A DNA stretch of 38,690 nucleotides from Dethiobacter sp. (lineage in GTDB: Bacteria > Bacillota > Dethiobacteria > Dethiobacterales > Dethiobacteraceae): NCBI GenBank assembly GCA_018333635.1, contig JAGXTL010000024.1:1-38690 (forward strand). The letters are read 5' to 3'. The notes under the pieces are model-generated. The model saw only the letters and a list, made by a program, of their open reading frames with translations. It did no database searches and was not told the DNA's origin. How positions within the stretch are numbered: position 1 is the stretch's first letter; every line of letters begins with the position of its first letter. Shown here piece after piece: positions 4,603-36,110 of the stretch. The translations under genes were made by a program, and so were the position numbers.

Positions 4603-4931
4603 CTTTATTCCCTAACATGTAAGAGACTTGGAACCTCAATCTGCCCGCACCCTGACCCTCTCCCATTGGCACTCCTAGGGGGACACCCCTAAGAGGGACA
4701 GGTGATTTGTCCCACTCGTCCACGCGACCACCCCGCCCTTGCGGGCACCCCTCCAGGGGAGGGAAATTTGGGGGGTGTCGCAGGACGACTCCTTTTCGGG
4801 CGGGTTTCAGTGAGAATAGGTGTCTAGTGTAATATCTTATTATATAGACAACCTGTCCAATGTAAATTATGTAGCCAAATCGTCTAATATCTTTCAATAG
4901 GTGCAAAACAGGTGTAAAACCAACCTTATGG
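4603..4931. repeat. Repeat-rich intergenic stretch with an interspersed GC-rich palindromic element
   Basis: No gene is supported here. The stretch carries several GC-rich palindromic pieces. The segment 4724-4769 recurs at 36024-36069: the first 40 bases are identical and the rest has one mismatch. Its core is CCGCCCTTGCGGGC followed by CCCCTCCAGGGG, both self-complementary. Further imperfect palindromes (CCTAGGGGGACACCCCTAAG) lie around 4673-4692. Base composition is much richer in G+C than the flanking genes. An open frame on the minus strand across this region (4517-4906) is low-complexity and not a gene. Confidence 0.7.
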
Positions 4932-20044: not shown

Positions 20045-20839
20045 ATGTCTTCTGTGATAGAAAGCGCCCAAAATCAATATCTAAAGCTATACCGCAGCCT
20101 AAAGAAGAGACAAGTACGTGATGAGCTGAAGCTGCTGCCGCTTGAGGGCATCAAGCTGGTTAGCGATGCTCTTTCCCGAGGTTCTGTTCCTCGCTTAATT
20201 CTTCTGAGGGAAGATGTAGAGATGGACAAGTTCCCTTTTCTTTTGCCGCTCTTAGGAAACATTTTAATTGTCCGTGTGGCAGAAAAACTTTTTGATGGCA
20301 CAGCTTTTACAGATTCTCCGCAGGGAATCATTGCCATCACTGAAAAGCCCGGCTATGCATTGACAGAGCTTTTTGTCGGCTCTGCACCGCTTATTTTAGT
20401 GGTTGACGCTGTGCAGGATCCGGGGAATTTGGGAACGATGTTGCGCTCGGCGCTTGCCGCCGGTGCCTCCGGCGCAGTGCTGTTGCCGGGAACGGTGGAC
20501 AGCGCTAATCCAAAGACTCTACGCGCGGCTATGGGGGCCCATTTTGCTATGCCGGTAGTGGAGGCAACGACTGCCGAACTGTTATGTGAACTGCGACTGC
20601 GGCAGATTCCGCTGGTTGCCGCCGCCGCGACGTCTGCTATTTCCTACAACTGCTTTGACTGGTCTGTGCCGGCTGCGGTAGTAATCGGCAACGAAGGAGC
20701 GGGAGTTTCGCCTGTCGTGGCGGAAGCTGCCGACGCATGGGTTGCGATTCCGCTTGCCGCAGCAGTGGAATCGCTTAATGCTGCCGTTGCTATGTCTGTT
20801 ATTTTTTTTGAAGCCGCTCGTCAGCGCCGAAAGCTTTAG
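20045..20839 (+). CDS. TrmH/SpoU-family RNA 2'-O-methyltransferase (YsgA-like)
   Basis: A SPOUT-class methyltransferase, 264 residues, acting on ribose 2'-OH of rRNA or tRNA with SAM. The N-terminal substrate-binding domain is followed by the three SpoU motifs: DAVQDPGNLGTMLRSALAAG, AVVIGNEGAGVSP and IPLAAAVESLNAAVAMSV. The same family (ysgA) lies just upstream of pheS in Bacillus, so the context is ancestral even though yteA now stands between. ATG 20045 lies one base after the ktrA stop and has no strong SD, which suggests translational coupling. The target base is not known. Confidence 0.88.
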   Translation: MSSVIESAQNQYLKLYRSLKKRQVRDELKLLPLEGIKLVSDALSRGSVPRLILLREDVEMDKFPFLLPLLGNILIVRVAEKLFDGTAFTDSPQGIIAITEKPGYALTELFVGSAPLILVVDAVQDPGNLGTMLRSALAAGASGAVLLPGTVDSANPKTLRAAMGAHFAMPVVEATTAELLCELRLRQIPLVAAAATSAISYNCFDWSVPAAVVIGNEGAGVSPVVAEAADAWVAIPLAAAVESLNAAVAMSVIFFEAARQRRKL

Positions 20840-20842
20840 GGA

Positions 20843-20886
20843 AATACAGAAGATTTCTTGAATCATCTTCTTGCCTGTGCTATAAT
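20843..20886 (+). repeat. 44-bp direct repeat carrying a promoter, copy 1
   Basis: Identical to 21757-21800. It contains TTGAAT (20858-20863), a 17-base spacer, and TATAAT (20881-20886) with TGC before it (extended -10). An inverted repeat AGAAGAT...ATCTTCT overlaps the -35. The homology extends left to AAAGCTT at the end of the methyltransferase gene, with a six-base gap. Nothing coding follows on this strand; a transcript would run about 65 bases into the hairpin at 20917-20955. Confidence 0.95.
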
Positions 20887-20916
20887 CCTGCCTTTGACAG
20901 CAAATAAACTGAAAAA

Positions 20917-20966
20917 GAGGCCGTAACTCCCATGAATAAAGGAGTTTGCGGCCTTCATGTTTTTCA
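20917..20966 (-). terminator. Terminator of yteA
   Basis: On the minus strand, AAGGCCGCAAACTCC pairs with GGAGTTACGGCCT across a loop and is followed by CTTTTTC. On the plus strand the same hairpin is followed by CATGTTTTT and could end a short RNA from promoter copy 1. Confidence 0.75.
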
Positions 20967-20983
20967 GAAATATGTAGGGAAAA

Positions 20984-21589
20984 CTAGTCAGGAAGCTGAT
21001 CGCGGTATTCTTCGTTCGAGATGCGATCCGTATCTTCAACGGCACCGTTTGTTTCATCATTTTCATCGTTCGTTTCTTCGTAATAAACATGGTTTAGCTT
21101 GTTGTACTGAGCTACGTCCTGCCACGCATCCTCGCCGTCATAGCCCGTATAATCTTTATCCCCCATATAGGAGCGGGCAAACGGCAGGCTTAGTTCCTCA
21201 ATGGGCCTGGGATAATTGTGCGGGGGAACCTCCGTTTTGCGTTTGCAGTGAATACAGAACTCAGCGTAGGGAATGGCGTCAAGCCGGTCAGCGGGAATTG
21301 TTTTCCCGCAATTTTCGCAGACACCGTAGAGACCCAGATCCATTCTTTCCAGCGCTTTGTCCACCTTCCTCAGAATCAGCAAGTTTTTCTCGTGCAGTGA
21401 AATATCTTTGGCCCGCTCATAATTTTCACTGGCGATGTCGGCCGGATGGTTGTCGATGACAGAAAGTTCCTGTGTTGCATCCCGCAACCCCTGGTGCTCC
21501 TGCAAGCCCTCCGTTACATCCATCTGGTCAAGCAGTTCTTTTTTCATTTTATCCAGTTGCTTCCTGTGGCGTATAAACTTTGTATTCAT
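20984..21589 (-). CDS. yteA: DksA/TraR zinc-finger regulatory protein, YteA type
   Basis: A 201-residue relative of DksA in the YteA family seen in endospore formers. An N-terminal coiled-coil region contains HPADIASENYERAKD, the family mark. It is followed by the four-cysteine zinc finger C91-x2-C94-x17-C112-x2-C115 (CENCGKTIPA...FCIHC). The C-terminus is long and acidic. The acidic coiled-coil tip used by E. coli DksA to reach the RNA polymerase active site is not obvious. ATG 21589 follows CAGGAGG. It runs against all its neighbours and is flanked by the 44-bp direct repeats, so it probably entered this place between the SpoU gene and yqzL-pheST. Confidence 0.88.
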   Translation of the reverse strand: MNTKFIRHRKQLDKMKKELLDQMDVTEGLQEHQGLRDATQELSVIDNHPADIASENYERAKDISLHEKNLLILRKVDKALERMDLGLYGVCENCGKTIPADRLDAIPYAEFCIHCKRKTEVPPHNYPRPIEELSLPFARSYMGDKDYTGYDGEDAWQDVAQYNKLNHVYYEETNDENDETNGAVEDTDRISNEEYRDQLPD

Positions 21590-21756
21590 TGCTTGTCAGC
21601 CTCCTGCCATTCTGTTTTTCACAATGCGGACAATTCCTGCGATATAATACCTGATAATCGGATTAACATACATAATCAGCTCTGCTTAGCCTGCTTGTAT
21701 CTTGACATATTTATACATATACATATAGTATTTGGTCTACAAAAGGATTAAAGCTT

Positions 21757-21800
21757 AATACAGAAGATTTCTTGAATCATCTTCTTGCCTGTGCTATAAT
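21757..21800 (+). repeat. 44-bp direct repeat carrying a promoter, copy 2 (promoter of yqzL-pheST)
   Basis: Identical to 20843-20886. TTGAAT at 21772-21777, a 17-base spacer, TATAAT at 21795-21800 with TGC before it. Transcription should start at about 21807, just before yqzL, the T-box-like leader and pheST. A weaker promoter, TTGACA (21702-21707) with TATAGT (21724-21729), lies upstream. Confidence 0.95.
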
Positions 21801-21838
21801 GAAGGCAGTCCCATTCCATGAATAAGGAGTGGTCTGCG

Positions 21839-21937
21839 ATGTTTAATGCTGACCTGTTTTGGCGGTTTTTTGAAAGAACCGGTTCTGTAACAGCATATCT
21901 TTTGTATAAGCAGATGGTGACAAGCAGAAGAGGCTAA
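21839..21937 (+). CDS. yqzL: YqzL-family small protein
   Basis: A 32-residue reading frame found by eye. It starts MFNADLFWRFFERTGSVTAY and ends with LLYKQMVTSRRG. The pattern FW-x-x-FERTGS-x-x-AYLLYK matches the YqzL family of tiny proteins in spore formers, whose function is unknown. ATG 21839 has the SD AAGGAG (21824-21829) at 9 bases. It sits 39 bases after the start of transcription expected from promoter copy 2 and directly before the pheS leader. The inverted repeat ATGCTG...CAGCAT within it may also fold in the RNA. Confidence 0.72.
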   Translation: MFNADLFWRFFERTGSVTAYLLYKQMVTSRRG

Positions 21938-21939
21938 AG

Positions 21940-22071
21940 GCAATGATGGGACGAGTACGTGCGCCAAGCTGCGGAGCCTCCGGTACAGAACAAGAGTGAT
22001 TGGCGTGTCTGTTCAGCATGTCTGATGCTGCGGAAGTTTGCTTTCGTCCCTTTTTTGGGGCGATATTTTTT
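21940..22071 (+). promoter_or_regulatory. T-box-like attenuator leader of pheST (short or decayed)
   Basis: The leader opens with GATGGGACGAGTACGTG, like the 5' end of T-box stem I (AGTA element), and continues with CGCC...GGCG pairing around AAGAGTGATTGGCG, which recalls the AGAGAG...GGTTGGTG distal loop. It ends in a clear terminator: TCGTCCC (22044-22050), six T, GGGGCGA, then ATATTTTTT. GGGACGA near 21948 can pair with TCGTCCC, an alternative to the terminator. The conserved T-box bulge TGGNACCGCG is not present; CTGATGCTGCGG stands in that place. At about 130 bases it is shorter than a full T-box. Confidence 0.5.
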
Positions 22072-22109
22072 ATTCCATTGCTTGTTAGAAAAGGGAGTGA
22101 AGGCGTTCC

Positions 22110-23135
22110 GTGCAGAAAAAACTTCAGGAAATACATAACCAAGCCGTTGCAGAAATTGCTGCAGTGCAGACAGAAGATGAATTAAAACAAGTTCAAGTCC
22201 GTTTTCTGGGCAAAAAAGGAGAGATGACTTCCCTTTTGCGTGGAATGGGACAGCTGCCGCCGGAAGAACGTCCGCTGGTGGGAGGCTTGGCGAATCAGCT
22301 TAGGGATGAATTGACGAATCTTTTTACCGCGCGTGAAGAAGAGCTGCGCAGTACGGCTCGCCGCAAGGCAATGGCTGATGAGCAGGTAGATGTGACACTG
22401 CCCGGTAAGCCGCCCATGATCGGCCATTTACATCCTCTGACACTGATCATGGATGAAATTGCCGAAATTTTCCTCGGGATGGGTTTTACTATTAAAGAGG
22501 GTCCGGAAATTGAGACAGAATATTATAATTTTGAGGCGCTGAATATTCCCAGGGAGCATCCGGCACGGGAGATGCAGGATTCTTTTTATATACGGCCGGA
22601 GGTTTTGCTGCGTACCCACACATCACCGGTGCAGATCAGGACCATGGAAGAGTTGGCACCGCAGGTGCCGGTACGGATAATTGCGCCGGGAAAAGTATAC
22701 AGACGCGATGATGATGCTACCCATTCCCCAATGTTTCACCAGGTTGAGGGGTTGGTGATTGACCGTGATATTTCCCTTTCCGATTTAAAAGGCACTTTGC
22801 TTTTGTTTGCTCGTCAGATGTTTGGACCGAAGCAGCAGGTACGATTACGCCCCAGTTTCTTCCCGTTCACTGAACCGAGTGCGGAAGTAGATATTGCTTG
22901 TGTGATTTGCGGCGGCCAGGGTTGTCGTGTCTGTAAAGATAGTGGCTGGATTGAAATTCTCGGTTCAGGCATGGTACACCCTCGGGTGCTGGAGTTGTCC
23001 GGATACGATCCGGAAGAGTATACTGCTTATGCGTTTGGCATGGGCGTGGAGCGTGTTGCCATGCTGAAATACGGGATTGGCGATCTGCGGATGTTTTTTA
23101 GTAATGATATTCGTATGCTACGGCAATTCAGCTGA
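22110..23135 (+). CDS. pheS: Phenylalanyl-tRNA synthetase alpha subunit
   Basis: The catalytic subunit of the (alpha-beta)2 enzyme, 341 residues. An N-terminal coiled coil (to about residue 85) binds tRNA-Phe. The class II core shows motif 2 with [18 protein letters not shown] and motif 3 with GFGMGVER-like sequence ([18 protein letters not shown]). [14 protein letters not shown] is the usual phenylalanine-site sequence. [17 protein letters not shown] is a cysteine-rich insertion common in bacterial PheS. GTG 22110 is the start, behind AAGGGAG. It ends 25 bases before pheT. Confidence 0.97.
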
Positions 23136-35769: not shown

Positions 35770-36110
35770 CTGAATGGTTTGTCTAGTTGCCTCTTACCAT
35801 CCAAGCGTTTTTAAACGACTTTCTTGCTACAGTTAAAAGTGCTTGCCAAGTGGGTTATCTTTCTCGCTACTTGTTGCTACAGCGGTCGTAAGCTTTGAAC
35901 CAAAGAAGACCTGCGGCATTGGGAAAAGGCTCGACTTTGCTAAAATGCTTGCTAAAGCAGGCATGAAAAGGATAATATGTATAAGCGGATAAAAAATTGT
36001 GTTCTGTGAGTTTGAGGCGGTATGCGACCACCCCGCCCTTGCGGGCACCCCTCCAGGGGAGGGGAATTTTTGTAGCAGGAAATTATATGGGAAACGCGTA
36101 GCGTCTTCTG
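35770..36110. other. Intergenic stretch without a gene, carrying repeat copy 2
   Basis: I see no gene between the EamA promoter and the Smr-like gene. The main feature is the repeat at 36024-36069. The rest is AT-rich and may hold decayed sequence. A minus-strand open frame over 35833-36360 has an unnatural composition and overlaps the Smr-like gene, so it is not accepted. Confidence 0.6.
36024..36069. repeat. Interspersed GC-rich repeat, copy 2
   Basis: Matches 4724-4769: 40 identical bases from GCGACCACC onward, then one mismatch and AATTT. Built from two small palindromes (CCGCCCTTGCGGGC-type and CCCCTCCAGGGG). Confidence 0.9.

Follow-up and report, generated by a model that had tools for sequence, protein, structure and literature searches.

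Genes and repeats at the locus

The window analysed here, a stretch of 38,690 nucleotides from a Dethiobacter sp. genome (G000), carries the opposing gene yteA between a SpoU-type RNA methyltransferase gene and the yqzL-pheST unit, and yteA is enclosed by two copies of a 44-bp sequence (Table 1). The two copies agree at 44 of 44 positions by exact comparison within the window, they form its longest exact repeat, and no third copy occurs in it when up to three mismatches are allowed (0 expected from 100 shuffles). Each holds TTGAAT and TATAAT separated by 17 nt, with TG preceding TATAAT, a promoter of the extended sigma-A type. The exact match and the promoter scan thus agree with the original prediction, which had described two identical segments with one such promoter in each.

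Table 1. Features of the SpoU-yteA-pheS region (window coordinates)
Feature	Position	Strand	Basis or remark
SpoU-type RNA methyltransferase, left neighbour of the insertion	20045..20839	+	open frame; TIGR00186 and related models, all under cut-off
Left copy of the 44-bp duplication	20843..20886	+	orphan promoter; TTGAAT 20858-20863, 17 nt, TATAAT 20881-20886; drifted counterpart in G001
Right end of IS1634-family element: tip CCTGCCTTTGACAGC and hairpin	20887..20979	+	similarity to IS copies, fold
yteA (DksA/TraR-type zinc-finger protein), passenger inside the duplication	20984..21589	-	TIGR02890, 160.7 bits (cut-off 134.4); PF01258
namZ remnant (3' end and flank)	21727..21756	+	similarity to G001, where namZ is intact
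Right copy of the 44-bp duplication	21757..21800	+	presumed to be the functional promoter for yqzL-pheST; conserved in 8 other genera
yqzL, first gene of the yqzL-pheST unit	21839..21937	+	PF14006 for frame 21818-21937; start region aligned across genera
pheS, gene downstream of the duplicated promoter	22110..23135	+	open frame; matches in 8/8 genera searched

The similarity had also been thought to continue on both sides of the 44 bp, which is not what the sequences show. On the left, where AAAGCTT was taken as the extension, the left copy reads AAAGCTTTAGGGAAATACAG and the right copy AAAGCTTAATACAG, and AAAGCTT is absent from the SpoU end of G001, G002 and G003; the SpoU end of G011, from another genus, has GAAGCTT. 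On the right, the shared element was said to be CCATGAATAA(A)GGAGT, the Shine-Dalgarno region of yqzL. Its distance from TATAAT is 43 nt at the left copy and 15 nt at the right one, and its occurrence at the left copy corresponds to the loop of the IS hairpin described below, a loop that varies among related IS copies.

In the sister species G001 the order is yteA, namZ, right promoter copy, and the exo-muramidase gene namZ carries both NamZ_N and NamZ_C. Positions 21727-21830 of the window are 92% identical to G001:C91:18243-18343, and the G001 namZ ends at about 18250, so that the window retains just the last bases of namZ and its flank.

Three further elements were observed. A promoter-like site on the forward strand (21702-21729, TTGACA-16-TATAGT, 11/12) closely precedes the right copy and might also feed yqzL-pheST; G001 has different DNA at this place. 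The yqzL leader (21807-21838, CATTCC...GGAGTGGT) does not vary among the 11 sequences aligned, which represent 9 genera, namely the window and the SpoU-yqzL gaps of L347-L354, L356 and L357; its hairpin would enclose the yqzL ribosome-binding site and is possibly a translational control element ahead of pheST. G006, outside that alignment, deviates. Finally, an exact 40-bp G+C-rich palindrome-like repeat (4724-4763 and 36024-36063, 31 kb apart) looks like a dispersed genome repeat.

An IS1634-family right end beside the left promoter copy

The sequence to the right of the left copy is repeated elsewhere. A search of the source genome found it again on contigs C12, C107 and C111, and a query with 20840-20990 matched 13 of 59 genomes, G000 counted, although among these the G003 match was to the promoter alone and those of G010 and G033 spanned only 21-26 bp. 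The identity of 20887-20979 is 94% to G000:C12 and G000:C107, and 71-96% over 72-107 bp to other genomes. When aligned, the copies start with CCTG(A/C)CTTTGACAGC or near variants, followed by a strong hairpin (fold z = -4.9 and -4.3 on the two strands). In fuller copies this block comes after the stop codon of a transposase, as it does after the transposase on G000:C107, and the transposases of these relatives belong to the IS1634 family by NF033559 (cut-off 100; partial protein of G000:C107, 146 bits; 584-aa protein of G043, 365.5 bits). By sequence similarity, 20887-20979 is therefore assigned as the right end of an IS1634-family element.

The tip of this right end, at 20887, is the first base after the left 44-bp copy and abuts its -10 box, and G000 and G001 have the junction at that same base. 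The original prediction had read the locus as an insertion of yteA that duplicated the promoter. Insertion and duplication are supported; the agent is revised to an IS1634-family element, whose remaining right end had gone unseen.

Only this end is found at the locus. The left tip CGTTAGTTTGACAGC, defined from left ends in G001, G000, G006 and G031, is absent from the window even with three mismatches allowed, so no complete element is enclosed by the repeats and a single end carries the case. As a possible substitute for the left end, 21727-21756 was considered; by eye, it bears no convincing resemblance to the left tip. The remnant has no transposase of its own, a protein that IS copies with the same right end do encode. 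Of the two related tips of an IS, the right one alone is present, and the sequence is filed as a right-end remnant and not as an IS. Nor do the passenger genes lie between two IS copies, as they would in a composite transposon. A target direct repeat is present in the form of the exact 44 bp, one copy of which is bordered by the IS tip.

The IS hairpin is likely the terminator of yteA. The scan for consensus terminators does not list it; its loop of about 10 nt is over the limit of the scan, and the label therefore rests on the fold and on the position after the transposase in fuller copies. A search of 20700-22200 against Rfam gave no match up to E 5.

In G000 (C107), G031 and G006, several contigs break off within or next to IS1634 right ends; the numbers of complete copies and of their repeats are therefore probably too low.

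Age and history of the insertion

The original prediction had proposed a search for relatives with a single promoter and without yteA in the SpoU-pheS gap. Such relatives exist: the congeners G002 and G003 have one promoter copy each, and in all eight other genera examined SpoU and yqzL are adjacent, with a short gap, one promoter and no yteA between them. It had also suggested a recent event, which does not fit G001. That species has the same arrangement, the same junction and two promoter copies at a four-fold-site divergence from G000 of 0.319 (0.274 for G000-G002 and 0.265 for G000-G003, both nearer to G000 than G001 is). On this comparison of sequences the insertion is old. The left copy of G001 has drifted, with two changes in a 40-nt core that shows no difference between the right copies of G000 and G001, and the single copy of G002 has one of these two changes.

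In G000 and G001 the sole match to yteA is this locus, so that its old neighbourhood lacks the gene there. Sixteen of the 19 genomes searched had yteA, and there was no match anywhere in G002 or G003, both drafts about 93% complete. In the seven other genera with a yteA match the gene adjoins a DUF5665-like gene (7/7, names assigned by eye and not by family search), with a further gene between the two in G007, mostly near ileS, lspA and lgt. SpoU or pheS was found in the flank (up to 1.5 kb) of none of the 14 yteA loci outside the genus, in a search that counted SpoU, pheS, ktrA and namZ queries.

The absence of yteA from G002 and G003 is unexpected under a simple gain in G000 and G001. A clade of these two is not rejected in a four-protein tree (AU p 0.32), and the tree is compatible with either history. 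The single promoter of G002 and G003 may be an excision product instead of the pre-insertion state: because yteA is found in neither of them, and is missing from its old neighbourhood in G000 and G001, a precise deletion between the repeats that removed yteA is a live possibility there.

Long duplications made by IS1634 elements

Exact repeats around 60 scored IS1634 copies measure 17-705 bp, with a median of 126 bp. A complete relative in G043 lies between exact 54-bp repeats that end in TTGACA...TATAATAAT at the same IS end, and the repeats around ten G021 copies measure 60-352 bp. Two contigs of G001, one bearing a left end and the other a right end of the window's clade, have exactly 73 bp in common, ending in TTGACT...TAGAAT. 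The left end is at least 47 bp upstream in 58 of the 60 copies, and 44 bp upstream in the window. The 44-bp repeat with an IS tip at its edge fits these measured duplications, near the low end of their lengths. The same procedure found no repeat above 12 bp at eight G021 loci with two more distant kinds of transposase, whose element ends were not established.

Long repeats of this family are on record. In the accessible text of a 2008 review (PMC2266710), the usual IS1634-family repeat is 5-6 bp, long repeats are called atypical, variable direct repeats of 8-514 bp are given for IS1634 of Mycoplasma mycoides and IS1549 of Mycobacterium smegmatis, and no mechanistic model is said to have been put forward for their variable long duplications. 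The window's IS relatives share the family of these two elements by the NF033559 matches of their transposases. Long IS1634 duplications are thus already known, and with the IS end recognised there is nothing unusual in the local repeat.

Right ends and -10 elements

The position of the right end directly after TATAAT is shared with many other copies. At 48 of 67 right-end junctions the junction hexamer matches TATAAT in at least four of six positions, against a background of 5-8%. By group the counts are 15/20 for the window's clade, 10/11 for G021 and 23/36 for distant copies, where the hexamer was taken one base further back; positions in the same flanks gave 5.2%, 6.0% and 7.9%. The tip pattern gave 21 junctions in the window's clade, of which 20 were used, the orthologous G001 site being left out. 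Excluded from the junction set from other loci were those with no recognisable tip or almost no flank, and L156, L170 and L194, at which exact repeats are present.

With the -35 element included, the 20 sites of the window's clade reach a score sum of 175, or 164 without the window's own site, against a background of 108.0 (sd 5.6; best of 20,000 draws 128). Taken singly, 12 of the 20 reach p 0.05 and 8 do not. When the flanks of 28 copies were joined into empty sites (28 of 30 rows, L164 and L194 being dropped for doubtful edges), the right-end promoter sum was 248 against 182.7 (sd 5.7; best draw 207), 15 single sites reaching p 0.05 and 13 not. The left-end junctions of the same set had a mean of 6.58 (26 sites) against a background of 6.53.

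This scoring had been chosen after the sites were seen, and was then applied unchanged to other genomes. Eighty-eight loci were picked by hand, mostly in genomes of few contigs, from the matches listed and the eight G021 loci mentioned above. Thirty-two of the 88 passed, having a repeat of at least 30 bp that is bordered by a C...TTT tip; another 14 had longer repeats but broke the tip rule, and 42 were without a 30-bp repeat. The 32 copies gave a sum of 259 against 206.4 (sd 6.0, z 8.7), 11 of them reaching p 0.05 singly, and their left ends had means of 6.78 and 6.44 on the two strands against 6.45.

The junction corresponds to the downstream edge of the -10 element at most sites of the window's clade, and lies inside it or at its upstream edge in several distant copies. 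In distant clades, TTGACA was found 12 nt before the junction hexamer at 13 of 67 junctions, with 3.1 expected; several of these sites, once joined empty, have a better -10 about 5 nt further on, and the junction is then at its upstream edge.

A right end of the same kind follows the TATAAT of the pheST promoter in G006, from another genus (G006:C45:15099, L013), apparently through an insertion independent of that in the window. The C45 contig shares 113 bp with G006:C57:1-113 (L207), which may be a duplication or an assembly overlap.

The promoter preference is a property of some IS1634 clades only. Judged by lineage means, with the numbers of copies in brackets, the right ends of G234 (1), one type in G346 (2), G171 (4), G072 (2), G021 (10) and G285 (4) are on promoters, and even within such lineages single copies sometimes do not score. 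Copies of G258 (5), G323 (4), G280 (2) and G239 (1) have long repeats and background promoter scores, and promoter targeting was accordingly rejected as the cause of all long IS1634 duplications; such lineages make long duplication and promoter preference separable. L148, a member of the window's own clade, also scores at background.

Right ends off promoters are seen in the IS1634 copies L305-L309, L263-L266 and L319-L320, whose repeats are 34-524 bp long.

Interpretation

We consider it very probable that the repeat is the scar of an old IS1634-family insertion that duplicated the pheST promoter, its transposase and left end having been lost later. This reading draws on the repeat, the IS right end, its place after TATAAT, the sharing of both with G001 and the single promoters elsewhere. 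The element would have inserted between SpoU and yqzL. Its right end would have been joined immediately behind the -10 box of the pheST promoter, and the opposite end some 44 bp further upstream, past the -35 box. Filling of this wide stagger would have duplicated the 44 bp, which we take as the target duplication of this IS, and left the promoter in two copies. The right copy would still drive yqzL-pheST, while the left copy would fire into the IS hairpin and probably yield a short RNA at most. After loss of the transposase and the left end, yteA, and in G001 namZ as well, would have ended up between the remaining right end and the right copy; yteA perhaps entered through a one-ended transposition of an aberrant kind, or else took the place of the IS interior.

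It could also be argued that yteA arrived by some other integration or rearrangement that duplicated the promoter, the IS right end being a later arrival or a bystander terminator. The absent left IS end and the yteA stop codon, only about 4 bases past the IS-homologous stretch, would suit such a history; however, in both G000 and G001 the IS tip follows the 44-bp copy with no base between them, a position seen in many copies of the clade, and we regard another route as improbable. Selection might instead have kept the pair, either for a short or antisense RNA from the left promoter against the 3' end of yteA or because both copies are needed. The perfect identity in G000, despite a four-fold divergence of about 0.3 between congeners, speaks for this, but in G001 the changes are all in the left copy of the core, G002 and G003 manage without a second copy, and the IS hairpin would be expected from its fold to stop the transcript before yteA, so that maintenance by selection appears highly improbable. 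The source assembly is a draft of 137 contigs, which might raise the suspicion of an artefact; a second, separate genome, G001, shows this structure too, in diverged sequence and with one more gene enclosed, and we give an artefact practically no weight.

With the scar of an IS1634-family insertion as the preferred reading of the locus, a broader proposal can be made, to which we would give an even chance: that several IS1634 clades target promoters, with the right end placed at the -10, the left end upstream of the polymerase, and the host gene spared. The target would be the open promoter complex, in which the exposed -10 strand would receive the right end, while the left end would join DNA on the upstream side of the polymerase bound there; the rarity of short duplications would follow from this. 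The downstream gene would be spared because the copy adjoining it keeps a whole promoter. The link between right ends and promoters could otherwise reflect the survival of tolerated insertions, since those that duplicate a promoter should be nearly neutral for the downstream gene. Shifts of a few bases, or other intergenic sites, should be equally tolerable, yet only a few bases separate the -10 from the right end, and at the left-end junctions the scores stay close to background; survival without targeting thus seems rather doubtful.

The locus differs from known members of the family in several respects. IS1634 and IS1549 likewise have long, variable direct repeats, whereas the window has a right end alone, accompanied by a passenger gene. 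ISPfe2/Tn6097 of Paracoccus and ISGka5 of Geobacillus are of the same named family as the window's IS. According to the accessible text of PMC3281130, ISPfe2 copies move passenger genes as a composite transposon, whereas the window has one end and not two IS copies; 6-bp direct repeats are given for ISPfe2 and ISGka5 in the accessible parts of PMC3281130 and PMC8024623, against 44 bp here. As to promoters as targets of IS1634 or IS1549, no statement was met, the word 'promoter' being absent from the main text of PMC2266710, and no account of promoter targeting by IS1634 was found in the open-licence full-text literature searched, as far as its text was accessible (including PMC2266710, PMC8024623, PMC8944449, PMC9330008, PMC6352166, PMC3281130 and PMC4549789).

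For genome annotation the locus is a warning that a promoter present twice beside a hairpin can mark the scar of an IS, and that passenger genes could vanish without trace through recombination between such repeats. A right end anchored at the -10, with the opposite end free to vary upstream, gives a testable lead on the long duplications of the family. If the proposal is true, transposition would be guided by transcription and would spare the host, and in these clades one end of the long duplications would be explained. The pattern points to a way for an IS to enter a compact genome while the genes there stay active.
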